From Pseudomonas sp. JAI120 (lineage in GTDB: Bacteria > Pseudomonadota > Gammaproteobacteria > Pseudomonadales > Pseudomonadaceae), in the NCBI RefSeq assembly GCF_014207255.1, contig NZ_JACHCZ010000001.1, positions 856,592-920,591 of the forward strand: a stretch of DNA of 64,000 nt. The letters are read 5' to 3'. The notes below the pieces were generated by a model. It saw only the letters and a list, made by a program, of their open reading frames with translations. It was not told the origin of the DNA and did no database searches. Shown here piece after piece: positions 54,036 through 59,598 of this stretch. Both the position numbers and the translations under genes were made by a program. The first letter of the stretch is position 1. The number at the start of each line of letters is the position of its first letter.

Positions 54036-54080
54036 CGTTGGGGTTGGAATAAGTACATATCCATTGTTGCGGTCACGGCT

Positions 54081-54466
54081 GCTTAGGGTTCCGCCCTTAC
54101 GGCGGGTCACTTTGGAAAAGAGCCCCAAAGTAACCAAAGGGCTCTTGCCCCACCACTCGGTACCTCGCCTAGGCTCGGTATGCCCTCACTCCGGCTTGAA
54201 TCCGTGGGCCGCCGTCATGGGCCATCCCTGGCCCAGGACGGCTAACCCGGCGTCCTGCCGGGTTACCCACGGATTCAAGCCTGCGTTCGGCCAGCGTGGT
54301 TAACGGGGCGCCTAGGATCAAGATCAAAAGCCAGAGCAAAAGCAGACCGAGGTCCATCTGATATATGGAGATCCTAATGTGGGAGGGAGCTTGCCCCCGA
54401 TAGCGGTGAGTCAGTCAACCCAAGTATCACTGACCCACCCTCATCGGGGGCAAGCCCCCTCCCACA
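54081..54466. repeat. Long intergenic repeat, copy 1, with cloverleaf-like segment and BIME
   Basis: About 390 bp nearly identical to 59201-59598. Positions 54194-54280 can fold as a three-way junction: a perfect 15-bp outer stem (gcttgaatccgtggg, 54194-54208 with 54266-54280), a 12-of-13-bp hairpin (54211-54223 with 54230-54242) and an 8-bp hairpin (54243-54250 with 54258-54265). Another 8-bp hairpin lies at 54118-54146, and a BIME at 54376-54466 closes the element. Short open frames inside are not genes. Confidence 0.9.
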
Positions 54467-56176: not shown

Positions 56177-56872
56177 TCACCCTCGCAATACAAAAGCAGG
56201 AAACAATTCGCGCAATCGGCCCCATAACTCCGGCAATGCGGCCTGTGCCGGTGAGCTCGACAATTGCGCATCGAGCATGCTGGCCGTGCGCACCATTTGC
56301 ACCGCAAAGCGTTGCACACCGTTGGCTTGCAAACGCTGGGCCAGCAACAACAACCGAGGGGGGTCGATCAAATGCCAATGCACCGTGGTGCGGCACTCGT
56401 ATTCCACACCGCTGGCCAACAGGGTGTCGAGGCTGCGCCAGTTGGCGGCACCGCTGTTCCTGACCTGGGTAATCAACTGGCAATCCTCGGCCAGCGCCTT
56501 GACGTCAAAACCGACCCAGTCGGCATGGCGCAACGCATTGGCAAATCCTGCCGGCTTGATCCCGGCACTGTGCAGGCCGACGCGAAAGCCCATCGCCCGC
56601 ACTTCATCCATGGCCGCCGGCAAGCCTTCCTGCAAGGTCGGCTCGCCACCACTGAACACCACGGCGTCGAGCAGGTCCTTGCGCCGCTGCAAAAACAGCA
56701 ACACCCGGCGCCAATCCACCTCCGTGCTGCCGCGCGGTGGGATCAGGTCCGGGTTGTGGCAGTAACGACAGCGCCAGGCACAGCCCTGGCAAAACAGCAC
56801 ACAGGCGAGCATGCCGGGGTAGTCGAGGGTGGTCAGGGGCACCAGGCCCCCGATCCGTAGCGCTCGACTCAT
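56177..56872 (-). CDS. nrdG: Anaerobic ribonucleotide reductase activating enzyme NrdG
   Basis: The 231-residue radical SAM protein opens MSRALRIGGLVPLTTLDYPG and has the CxxxCxxC cluster motif in GCAWRCRYCHNPDL and the SAM-binding GGEPTLQ. It cleaves S-adenosylmethionine to install the glycyl radical on NrdD. Its start overlaps by 4 bp (ATGA) the stop of the 51-residue gene that carries the radical glycine motif, so target peptide and activator are translationally coupled. Confidence 0.94.
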   Translation of the reverse strand: MSRALRIGGLVPLTTLDYPGMLACVLFCQGCAWRCRYCHNPDLIPPRGSTEVDWRRVLLFLQRRKDLLDAVVFSGGEPTLQEGLPAAMDEVRAMGFRVGLHSAGIKPAGFANALRHADWVGFDVKALAEDCQLITQVRNSGAANWRSLDTLLASGVEYECRTTVHWHLIDPPRLLLLAQRLQANGVQRFAVQMVRTASMLDAQLSSSPAQAALPELWGRLRELFPAFVLRG

Positions 56873-57024
56873 TGGCGCCCGGCCACGGCGGCCGTTTCAG
56901 TGAAATGCACCCGTTCCTTGTGCTCGGATTGTTTGCCGGGATTGAACGCCGACACGGGCCGGTGATAGCCCATCACCCGGGTCCAGACTTCGCAGCGCTG
57001 ACGTTGTGGCTGGGATGTTTGCAT
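56869..57024 (-). CDS. Separate glycyl-radical C-terminal peptide of class III ribonucleotide reductase
   Basis: The 51-residue protein contains CEVWTRVMGYHRPVSAFNPG and the following KQSEHKERVHF, which correspond to the last part of NrdD in many bacteria. There the glycine in the RVxGY motif becomes the stable radical and the GKQ...ER.. segment ends the chain. Here it is an independent gene with a strong AAGGAG, 8 nt before the ATG at 57024, 31 bp after the nrdD stop and overlapping nrdG by 4 bp. Since the large nrdD product lacks this motif, the two proteins must act together. Function by homology; the split itself is directly seen. Confidence 0.85.
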   Translation of the reverse strand: MQTSQPQRQRCEVWTRVMGYHRPVSAFNPGKQSEHKERVHFTETAAVAGRQ

Positions 57025-57055
57025 GGTGAATCTCCTTGCGGGTTGGAAGATCGGT

Positions 57056-59056
57056 TCAATGCGCAGCGGCAAGTGCCAGCACTTCATCGCACTTGGGACA
57101 GAACTCATGCTCACCGGCGAGGTAGCCGTGCACCGGGCAGATCGAGAACGTCGGGGTGATCGTCAGGTACGGCAGGCGGAAACGCCCCAACGCCTTGCGC
57201 ACCAGTTGCTTGCAGGCCTGGGCCGAGGAAATCTGCTCGGCCATGTACAGGTGCAACACGGTGCCGCCGGTGTATTTGCATTGCAGTTCGTCTTGCAGCT
57301 CCAGGGCTTCGAAGGGGTCTTGGGTAAAGCCCACCGGCAATTGCGAGGAGTTGGTGTAGTACGGCGCGACGTCGCTGCCGGCCTGCAGGATGTCCGGATA
57401 GCGCTTGCGGTCTTCCTTGGCGAAGCGGTAGGTGGTGCCTTCCGCCGGCGTGGCTTCGAGGTTGTAGAGGTGGCCGGTGTCTTCCTGGAAGCGCAGCAAG
57501 GTGGCGCGTACATGGTCGAGCAGCTTGAGGGCAAACGCGCGGCCCTCTTCGGTGTGCATGCCCTGCTCGTCGCCGGTGAAATTGCGCAGCATCTCGTGCA
57601 TGCCGTTGAGGCCGATGGTGGAGAAGTGATTGCGCAAGGTGCCGAGGTAACGCTTGGTGTACGGGTACAAGCCGGCGTCCATATGGTGCTGGATCACCTT
57701 GCGCTTGACCTCCAGGCTTTCCATGGCCATGTCCATCAGGCTGTCCAGGCGTTGCAACAGGCCTGAGGTGTCGCCCTTGAACAGGTAACCCAGGCGCGCG
57801 CAGTTGATCGTCACCACGCCGAGGCTGCCGGTCTGCTCCGCCGAACCGAACAACCCCCCGCCGCGCTTGAGCAGCTCGCGCACGTCCAGTTGCAGGCGGC
57901 AGCACATCGAGCGCACCTGGTTGGGTTGCATATCGGAATTGAGGAAGTTCTGGAAATACGGCAGGCCGTAGCGCGCGGTCATCTCGAACAGACGGTCGGC
58001 GTTCTCGCTGTCCCAAGGGAAGTCGTGGGTAATGTTGTAGGTGGGAATCGGGAAGGTGAACACCCGGCCCTTGGCATCGCCGGCCTGCATCACTTCGATA
58101 TAGGCGCGGTTGATCAGCTCCATTTCCGCTTGCAGGTCGCCATAGGCAAACGGCATTTCCTCACCCCCGATCACCGGCACCTGCTCGCGCAGATCTTCCG
58201 GGCACACCCAGTCGAAGGTCAGGTTGGTAAACGGCGTCTGGGTGCCCCAGCGCGACGGTACGTTGAGGTTGTAGATAAACTCCTGCACCGCCTGGCGCAC
58301 CTCGGCGTAGCTCAGTTGATCCTTGCGCACATAGGGCGCCAGGTAGGTATCGAACGAACTGAACGCCTGGGCGCCGGCCCATTCGTTTTGCAGGGTGCCG
58401 AGGAAGTTGACCATCTGCCCCAGGGCGCTGCTCAAGTGCTTGGGCGGCCCCGCTTCGACACGGCCCGGCACACCATTAAGGCCTTCGTGCAGCAGTGAAC
58501 GCAGCGACCAGCCGGCGCAATAACCGGCGAGCATGTCCAGGTCATGGATATGCAAATCCGCCTCGCGGTGCGCGCGACCGATCTGCTGGCTGTAGACCTC
58601 GTCGAGCCAATAGTTGGCGGTGACCTTGCCCGACACGTTCAACACCAGCCCACCCAGGGAGTAGCCCTGGTTGGCATTGGCTTGCACGCGCCAGTCTTCG
58701 CGGTCGAGGTATTCGTTCATCGAGGTGGCGACTTCCACCAGGGTCTTGCGGTCGCGACGCAGGCGGCCGTGTTGTTCGCGGTAGACGATATAGGCGCGCA
58801 TGGAGAGGAAGTAGCCGGCGTCCATCAGTACGCGTTCGACGCTGTCCTGGATTTGTTCGACGTCCAGGTGTTCGATGCCCCTCAGGCGGGCCAGGACGGC
58901 GCCCAGTAACAGGTCGACGTCGGCCTCCTGGTACTCGCCGGTGGCGGTGCCGGCGGCGATCAGGGCGTGGTGGATTTTTTCGGCGTTGAAGGGGACCAGG
59001 CTGCCGTCGCGTTTGTGTAGGCGGGTGCTGACCAACGGGGTGAGCGTGTTTTGCAT
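57056..59056 (-). CDS. nrdD: Anaerobic ribonucleoside-triphosphate reductase NrdD, lacking the glycyl-radical end
   Basis: The 666-residue protein has an N-terminal ATP-cone (STRLHKRDGSLVPFNAEKIHHAL) for allosteric control and the class III catalytic barrel, with MCCRLQLDVRELLKRGGG containing candidate active-site cysteines. The C-terminal zinc site is SICPVHGYLAGEHEFCPKC. It ends there: the RVxGY radical segment expected next is encoded by the following small gene. It reduces ribonucleotides under anoxia. The ATG at 59056 has GGAG about 9 nt upstream. A candidate ANR box lies 89 bp before it. Confidence 0.93.
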   Translation of the reverse strand: MQNTLTPLVSTRLHKRDGSLVPFNAEKIHHALIAAGTATGEYQEADVDLLLGAVLARLRGIEHLDVEQIQDSVERVLMDAGYFLSMRAYIVYREQHGRLRRDRKTLVEVATSMNEYLDREDWRVQANANQGYSLGGLVLNVSGKVTANYWLDEVYSQQIGRAHREADLHIHDLDMLAGYCAGWSLRSLLHEGLNGVPGRVEAGPPKHLSSALGQMVNFLGTLQNEWAGAQAFSSFDTYLAPYVRKDQLSYAEVRQAVQEFIYNLNVPSRWGTQTPFTNLTFDWVCPEDLREQVPVIGGEEMPFAYGDLQAEMELINRAYIEVMQAGDAKGRVFTFPIPTYNITHDFPWDSENADRLFEMTARYGLPYFQNFLNSDMQPNQVRSMCCRLQLDVRELLKRGGGLFGSAEQTGSLGVVTINCARLGYLFKGDTSGLLQRLDSLMDMAMESLEVKRKVIQHHMDAGLYPYTKRYLGTLRNHFSTIGLNGMHEMLRNFTGDEQGMHTEEGRAFALKLLDHVRATLLRFQEDTGHLYNLEATPAEGTTYRFAKEDRKRYPDILQAGSDVAPYYTNSSQLPVGFTQDPFEALELQDELQCKYTGGTVLHLYMAEQISSAQACKQLVRKALGRFRLPYLTITPTFSICPVHGYLAGEHEFCPKCDEVLALAAAH

Positions 59057-59158: not shown

Positions 59159-59200
59159 GGTTTTTTGATTGGGGGTATATCCGTTATTTGGGTAACGGCG

Positions 59201-59598
59201 GCTTAGGGTTCCGCCCTTACGGCGGGTCACTTTGGAAAAGAGCCCCAAAGTAACCAAAGGGCTCTTGCCCCAACACTCGGCACCTCGCCTAGGCTCGGTG
59301 TGCCCTCACTCCGGCTTGAATCCGTGGGCCGCCGTCATGGGCCATCCTTGGCCCAGGACGGCTAACCCGGCGTCCTGCCGGGTTACCCACGGATTCAAGC
59401 CTGCGTTCGGCCAGCGTGTTTGACGGGGCGCCCAGGATCAAGATCAAAAGCCAGAGCAAAAGCAGAGCAAAAGCAGACCGAAGTCCATCTGATATATGGA
59501 GATCCAAATGTGGGAGGGGGCTTGCCCCCGATAGCGCCGGGTCAGTAAAAAATAAGTGACTGACACTCCCTCATCGGGGGCAAGCCCCCTCCCACATT
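59201..59598. repeat. Long intergenic repeat, copy 2, with cloverleaf-like segment and BIME
   Basis: Nearly identical to 54081-54466; it differs by a few substitutions and an extra 11-bp unit (agagcaaaagc) near 59451-59471. The three-way-junction segment at 59314-59400 keeps every paired base; the one change within it (59348) falls in a hairpin loop. The BIME at 59506-59598 closes the element. It fills most of the 690-bp gap 59057-59746, whose other contents are the ANR box and a partial inverted copy. Confidence 0.9.

Follow-up and report, generated by a model that had tools for sequence, protein, structure and literature searches.

In descriptions of the class III ribonucleotide reductase (RNR), the enzyme is a homodimer whose catalytic chain itself bears the glycyl radical; the locus considered here raises the question of whether this radical can reside on a polypeptide of its own. 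The locus lies in a stretch of 64,000 nucleotides from Pseudomonas sp. JAI120 (NCBI RefSeq assembly GCF_014207255.1, contig NZ_JACHCZ010000001.1, positions 856,592 to 920,591 of the forward strand), hereafter called the window. In it, the nrdD gene encodes a large chain of 666 residues whose C-terminal end is CPVHGYLAGEHEFCPKCDEVLALAAAH, just past the zinc site, and a separate gene encodes a peptide of 51 residues carrying RCEVWTRVMGYHRPVSAFN, which includes the glycyl-radical motif RVMGY. We consider it probable (roughly 0.88) that these two genes and the adjoining nrdG specify a two-subunit class III RNR, with the radical on the small subunit activated by NrdG, in one operon that is probably induced without oxygen.

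Family profiles place both products in a single protein. On the Pfam family NRDD (PF13597, 562 positions), the large chain covers positions 2-528 (2.2e-175) and the peptide positions 532-562 (1.5e-9); on NCBIfam NF006126 (684 positions), the large chain covers positions 3-650, and the match on the peptide begins at 649. Since the matches abut in both families, the two genes together make up one known protein, and the cut between them falls immediately past the zinc site. The large chain scores 1134 bits against an NF006126 cut-off of 548 bits, as a PRK08270-type NrdD should. It also has the finger-loop cysteine, in the loop S383-M-C-C-R-L; a coarse motif search found SMCCRL in 179 of 209 rows, another motif in 3 and none in 27. 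The double cysteine and the methionine of this loop have been tied to formate or thioredoxin as reductant (PMC9669993). The zinc-site residues C640, H643, C653 and C656, for which metal binding is predicted from the sequence, lie ahead of the radical loop and are invariant in 29 of 29 rows. A dedicated radical-SAM activase of the NrdG2 type adjoins, as expected of a class III RNR, but the RVxGY motif that such an NrdD carries in the same chain sits on the 51-residue gene. The peptide matches PF13597 alone at E<=0.1, and not PF01228, the family expected of GrcA/YfiD cofactors; against PDB sequences it gave no phmmer match at E<=1. A structure model of the large chain alone has a mean pLDDT of 77.5 and matches class III RNR structures.

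The original prediction, made from the letters of the window, had NrdD end right after the zinc motif with its stop at 57056-57058, had given the radical motif to a separate 51-residue gene, and had seen this gene overlap nrdG by ATGA (56872-56869), where the start of nrdG overlaps the stop of the peptide gene. These points hold, the separate gene being borne out by the two PF13597 halves and by its own ATG and ribosome-binding site. The AAGGAG site ahead of the small ATG is present as described, but its spacing is 7 nt rather than 8 nt.

The peptide is the only visible source of a glycyl radical in this genome (6.89 Mb, rated 100% complete), as had been proposed. Beyond the two pieces of the nrdD locus, no third PF13597 match was found in the genome at E<=10, and thus no second full-length nrdD, which would have spoken against the proposal; the PF01228 glycyl-radical domain gave no match in the genome at E<=1. 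PF02867 has one match, on a frame of 1065 residues, as expected of the class I NrdA; since this single match is NrdA-like, no class II enzyme is seen, and we infer that class II RNR is absent from the genome.

To relatives of the large chain we applied thresholds of at least 55% identity and at least 300 aligned residues, which 201 cellular and plasmid loci (up to L238) passed; 188 were left after removal of identical ends, and more distant NrdDs, fused where read, were kept out of this core count. The number of loci per search was limited, so that all figures are samples and not a census, and some of the named sources are metagenome bins of unsure phylum. The split, mapped across Pseudomonas and other genera as the original prediction had suggested, was found in 174 of the 188 unique loci, with 8 fused and 6 lacking a scored radical gene. 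Among these six, L052 has its radical gene at a contig edge, L118 has it 9.2 kb away, and L191 stops near the contig end; the other three, L055, L219 and L220, are described below. In the one genome with such a distance, G1461, the large chain (C4:22532-24490) and the peptide (C4:33655-33777) are encoded on the same strand 9.2 kb apart.

If the small frame is a gene, it should carry gene signals of its own. In the 174 split loci, the frame of the small gene relative to the large one is 0, +1 or +2 in 54, 68 and 52 cases, respectively, with a stop intervening between the two frames in the frame-0 loci, and the distance from the stop of the large chain to the radical motif ranges from 28 to 537 nt. 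An ATG is within reach in all 174, and a Shine-Dalgarno (SD) sequence of at least 5 nt lies ahead of 159 of these ATGs compared with 49 of 870 internal control ATGs. The peptide start was chosen partly by SD score, and loci with a single possible ATG were therefore counted as a control; an SD is present in 116 of these 124. The motif is RVMGY in 173 split loci and RSMGF in one, the loci having been found by a motif search tolerating some variants. In the peptide core of Pseudomonadaceae, pairwise codon differences, which are not independent of one another, number 14619 synonymous and 2004 non-synonymous, as against 524/15041 and 1621/13097 in the other two frames. Purifying selection acts on the small frame. 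In addition, 172 split loci have 400 nt or more of sequence behind the peptide, and nrdG lies there in 167 of them.

The split is far wider than Pseudomonas. In the genus sample, PF13597 exceeds the family cut-off in 71 of 298 genomes and falls short of it in 227, of which 215 show no match even at E<=1; among 30 loci of this sample read closely (L001 and L003-L031), 29 are split and one (L003) is fused. In the family, order and class samples, a match is present in 112 of 298, 41 of 293 and 38 of 369 genomes, and 101, 22 and 28 of the matching genomes, respectively, have at least two. The single-match genomes include split genes with an in-frame stop, fragments, one fused Pseudomonas and other fused NrdD types, the latter including ten E. 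coli-type loci of the order sample. In a scan of named genomes, the best 80 of at least 592 loci include split ones in Pseudomonas brassicacearum, P. chlororaphis, Stutzerimonas stutzeri, Thiobacillus thioparus, Hydrogenophaga taeniospiralis, Undibacterium aquatile and Parasutterella secunda. Plasmid pHG1 of Cupriavidus necator H16 encodes chains of 676 and 66 residues followed by nrdG, and plasmid records add split loci of Bradyrhizobium, Azospira, Shinella and Sulfuricurvum; the small gene is annotated nrdD there. Unannotated plasmid records of Paracoccus and C. metallidurans are split too. Orphan or extra radical peptides were seen at L155 (an Allochromatium vinosum plasmid), at L087 (G747), in a stretch of prophage-like appearance, and at L248 (G1093), which is a second copy away from NrdD. 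Genome G399, with locus L055, is 93% complete, and its relatives have an intact radical gene.

The history of the split was approached with trees of NrdD cores without the radical part. In a tree of 114 rows, with four fused rows on the outgroup side, a clade of 110 rows (support 100) comprises 98 split, 8 fused and 4 unclassed rows, the four fused ones lying outside. The split/fused label changes 7 times on this tree and 5 times on a second tree of 52 rows, chosen by hand and computed under a simpler model, on which the grouping of every split row into a single clade is rejected (p-AU 0.0002). Because 49 of the 111 inner branches of the 114-row tree are open and long branches meet, the number of split and fusion events is uncertain; the simplest account would be one early split, then several fusions back. 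The fused L003, nested inside the genus of the window, reads CPKC-AGVTR-CEVWTRVMGY, without tail, gap and start, and its frame also lacks the ATP-cone. The nesting of fused versions among split ones indicates a joint function of the two parts.

A link to physiology is provided by Pseudomonas aeruginosa. For strains of P. aeruginosa other than PAO1, the box ahead of nrdD is given as TTGACGCAGATCAA, at -98 in PAO1 numbering (PMC5645315). In 25 genomes of genus g9, this box occurs once, in G414, exactly 98 nt before nrdD, and the locus there is split into a chain of 675 residues and a separate peptide. Because the Dnr box agrees in both sequence and position, G414 is probably P. aeruginosa or very near to it, a link resting on the promoter box. 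In P. aeruginosa, an nrdD mutant is reported to have strongly reduced anaerobic growth, with growth upon addition of B12, and to have its biofilm restored by a plasmid with nrdDG (PMC4860495). Taken with the split locus of G414, the mutant phenotype implies that the split enzyme is active in cells, the small gene alone not being addressed by it.

Radical peptides were also found in viral contigs from IMG/VR, by a motif scan (L255-L286) and a profile scan (L287-L362). All 32 contigs of the motif scan have a short stand-alone radical frame, and the DNA examined around the peptide showed nothing related to the window's NrdD or NrdG. Among the best 80 of 127 viral relatives in the profile scan, 76 are stand-alone, 3 end a longer open frame and 1 was unparsed, and a window-type NrdD or NrdG is nearby in 0 of the 79 parsed loci. 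In whole viral records (30, of 27-212 kb), which may be fragments, none being rated 90% complete, all 30 have one PF13597 match, to the radical piece only; NrdG was not searched there. Ten of 18 neighbour proteins match a PHROG, including tail-fibre, tape-measure and endolysin families; none of the 4 neighbour proteins near L317 does so. The viral motif is RVMGY in 79 of 79, part of which the scan pattern itself demanded, and substitutions in the viral peptides are tilted towards synonymous ones, with synonymous and non-synonymous counts of 22767/14460, against 3154/33069 and 2062/29457 in the other frames. Two viral peptides tested are matched by phrog_4132, whose function is unassigned.

The stand-alone viral copies may be spare radical subunits used on the large chain of the host. 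We would give even odds to a broader picture, in which the anaerobic RNRs of a large part of the Proteobacteria would use an exchangeable radical subunit, split early and later re-fused several times, and phages would carry the peptide alone, lacking NrdD and NrdG, and during infection supply or renew the radical on the large chain of the host. Viral relatives of NrdD itself (80 kept) are fused in 53 cases, split in 19 and without a radical part in 8, and some of the 19 split calls resemble gene breaks more than the Pseudomonas-type architecture. In eleven of these relatives (L368-L372, L374, L376, L378-L380 and L407), the NrdD match begins behind the ATP-cone, and the radical motif follows 119-135 nt further on, either after a stop or in a different frame. 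Six others (L367, L375, L383, L385, L397 and L405) have a C-terminal extension which, by the appearance of the sequence, resembles a thioredoxin/glutaredoxin domain and would fit thioredoxin as reductant.

For the enzyme of the window, we propose a non-covalent complex in which the large chain would dimerise as in other class III enzymes and would provide the allosteric ATP-cone, the catalytic barrel, the SMCCRL finger loop and the zinc site. The peptide would dock beside the zinc site and the finger loop, thereby completing the glycyl-radical domain; NrdG, a radical-SAM protein, would install the radical on Gly19 of the peptide, from which it would pass to a finger-loop cysteine. By analogy with the saving argued for YfiD (PMC8683613), the benefit of the split may be that oxygen damage costs a replaceable 51 residues and not 666.

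Other explanations of the anatomy have to be set against this proposal. A single slip in the window would bring the two frames together, since they are offset by +1 and the small one remains open as far upstream as 57114; programmed +1 frameshifting at the nrdD stop might thus produce a full-length NrdD. Such a fusion is very improbable in view of the three relative frames, the stop intervening in the frame-0 loci, the variable spacing, the conserved ATG and ribosome-binding site and the gap in G1461, and the relative-frame counts over the 174 split loci contradict it. A sequencing error at the stop, named in the original prediction as an objection to it, or a decaying pseudogene in a lineage losing class III would suit the frequent absence of NrdD from the genus; nevertheless, the same anatomy recurs in most unique loci, from many families and in three relative frames, the small frame is under selection, ribosome-binding sites and nrdG are kept, and the P. 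aeruginosa mutant grows poorly without oxygen unless B12 is given (PMC4860495), so that either event is hard to credit.

The peptide might, on the other hand, be a GrcA-like repair part, with the large chain working alone or with another radical source. The same logic is known from YfiD and Y06I (PMC8683613), and viral contigs carry peptide copies without NrdD. Nevertheless, a repair part presupposes an enzyme with a radical domain of its own, and the large chains of split loci, including the only NrdD of the window's genome, lack the radical motif, while no other PF13597 or PF01228 domain was detected in that genome within the limits given above; we therefore regard this explanation as unlikely. 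Joining of the chains after translation, by a split intein or ligation, has next to no plausibility, since the conserved domain is preceded by 8 residues in the peptide and followed by 9 in the large chain, which leaves too little room for intein halves. The predicted combination of a catalytic chain with a separate radical peptide is supported by the split domain, the scrambled frames, the selection, the gap in G1461 and the nested fusions; physical association of the chains and radical transfer between them belong to the proposed mechanism.

Several observations weigh against a two-subunit enzyme or its viral extension. Class III activity reportedly could not be detected in Pseudomonas extracts in a 1999 study, and neither biochemical nor proteomic evidence of the peptide was found. 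In L055 of G399, an in-frame stop interrupts the radical gene immediately behind the codon of its radical glycine, and for L219 and L220, large chains of the split clade, no radical gene was recognised within 1.6 kb downstream. The model of the natural fused relative L224 has its radical region at pLDDT 35-47; the alignment behind it mixes long and short rows, and such mixed alignments misplaced parts of short rows. Finally, a search of 50,697 named phage records turned up just two matches to the peptide, both weak and one of them annotated NrdD, and the viral copies therefore rest on metagenome contigs.

Canonical class III NrdD (E. coli, phage T4 and T. maritima; PF13597, TIGR02487) shares with the enzyme of Pseudomonas sp. 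JAI120 the barrel, the zinc site, an RVxGY-type motif and the NrdG partner, whereas its radical loop is in the same chain and not on a separate polypeptide. The PRK08270-type NrdD is of the same subfamily as the large chain of the window; however, the NF006126 model describes a single chain that includes the radical segment (649-682), an arrangement found in 8 of the 188 sampled relatives. GrcA/YfiD belongs to PF01228. It and Y06I (from E. coli and phage T4, respectively) are likewise small stand-alone glycyl-radical domains completing a larger enzyme, with a phage version in existence (PMC8683613), but GrcA/YfiD serves pyruvate formate lyase (PFL) after oxygen cleavage, whereas the peptide of the window is of PF13597 and is the only source found. 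The original comparison with YfiD/GrcA therefore stands as an analogy of working and fails as one of family. The split class II RNR of P. aeruginosa, NrdJa/NrdJb, also consists of two polypeptides, both needed (PMC4520616), but represents another RNR class and another cut site. Broken nrdD or nrdA genes of phages (phiAS4, Lactococcus phage 949 and Aeh1) are interrupted by introns, by endonuclease genes or through unknown events (PMC3653736); they are sporadic breaks in single phages and not a conserved separate radical subunit.

In the open-access literature, we found no description of a class III RNR divided in this way, with the radical on a subunit of its own; key older papers lie outside it, and an earlier remark is possible. 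Nor did we find there a paper joining ribonucleotide reductase, glycyl radical, auxiliary metabolic gene and phage. As far as seen, the small gene is visible, being automatically annotated nrdD in some records, yet apparently undiscussed. One RNR survey dropped all sequences of fewer than 400 residues (PMC9531940), and surveys that drop short sequences cannot see the radical peptide. If the two-subunit enzyme is real, an 'NrdD' purified alone from Pseudomonas, Cupriavidus, Paracoccus and others is an enzyme without its radical residue. Installation, holding and transfer of a glycyl radical across a subunit interface become testable, as does detachability as a strategy against oxygen damage. 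Spare-part proteins are described as validated for PFL only (PMC8683613); the two-subunit enzyme would carry the principle over to the making of DNA precursors, and phages may have versions of it.

The features of the operon are listed in Table 1. The Anr/Dnr-like box, for which the consensus was taken from PMC4860495, suggests anaerobic control of the nrdD operon, and such a box lies within 300 nt upstream in 101 of 197 loci examined. Upstream of nrdD are genes for nitrate reductase delta- and gamma-type subunits, a PPIC-type rotamase and a MoaA-type radical-SAM protein; the surroundings are those of anaerobic respiration.

Table 1. Features of the split nrdD operon, in positions of the window.
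Feature	Position	Strand	Remarks
nrdD large chain (alpha), 666 aa	57056..59056	-	ATG 59056; ATP-cone and class III RNR barrel, no glycyl-radical motif
ATP-cone (PF03477)	aa 15-97 of nrdD large chain
Zinc-site motif, starting C640-x2-H643	57089..57139	-	sequence; invariant across 29 aligned large chains
TGA stop of nrdD large chain	57056..57058	-	frame of small gene is +1 relative to nrdD
AAGGAG ribosome-binding site of radical-peptide gene	57032..57037	-	7 nt 5' of ATG
Glycyl-radical peptide gene, 51 aa	56869..57024	-	ATG 57024, stop 56871-56869; radical loop of NrdD glycyl-radical domain
Codon of predicted radical glycine, Gly19 of RVMGY	56968..56970	-
nrdG, radical-SAM activase, NrdG2 type	56177..56872	-	TIGR02495 9.2e-63
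Anr/Dnr-like box TTGACCCCGATCAA	59145..59158	-	88 nt before nrdD ATG

Two direct repeats of 290 nt, 96% identical and 5.1 kb apart (54057-54346 and 59177-59466), flank the nrdD-peptide-nrdG operon together with a chemotaxis-receptor gene.

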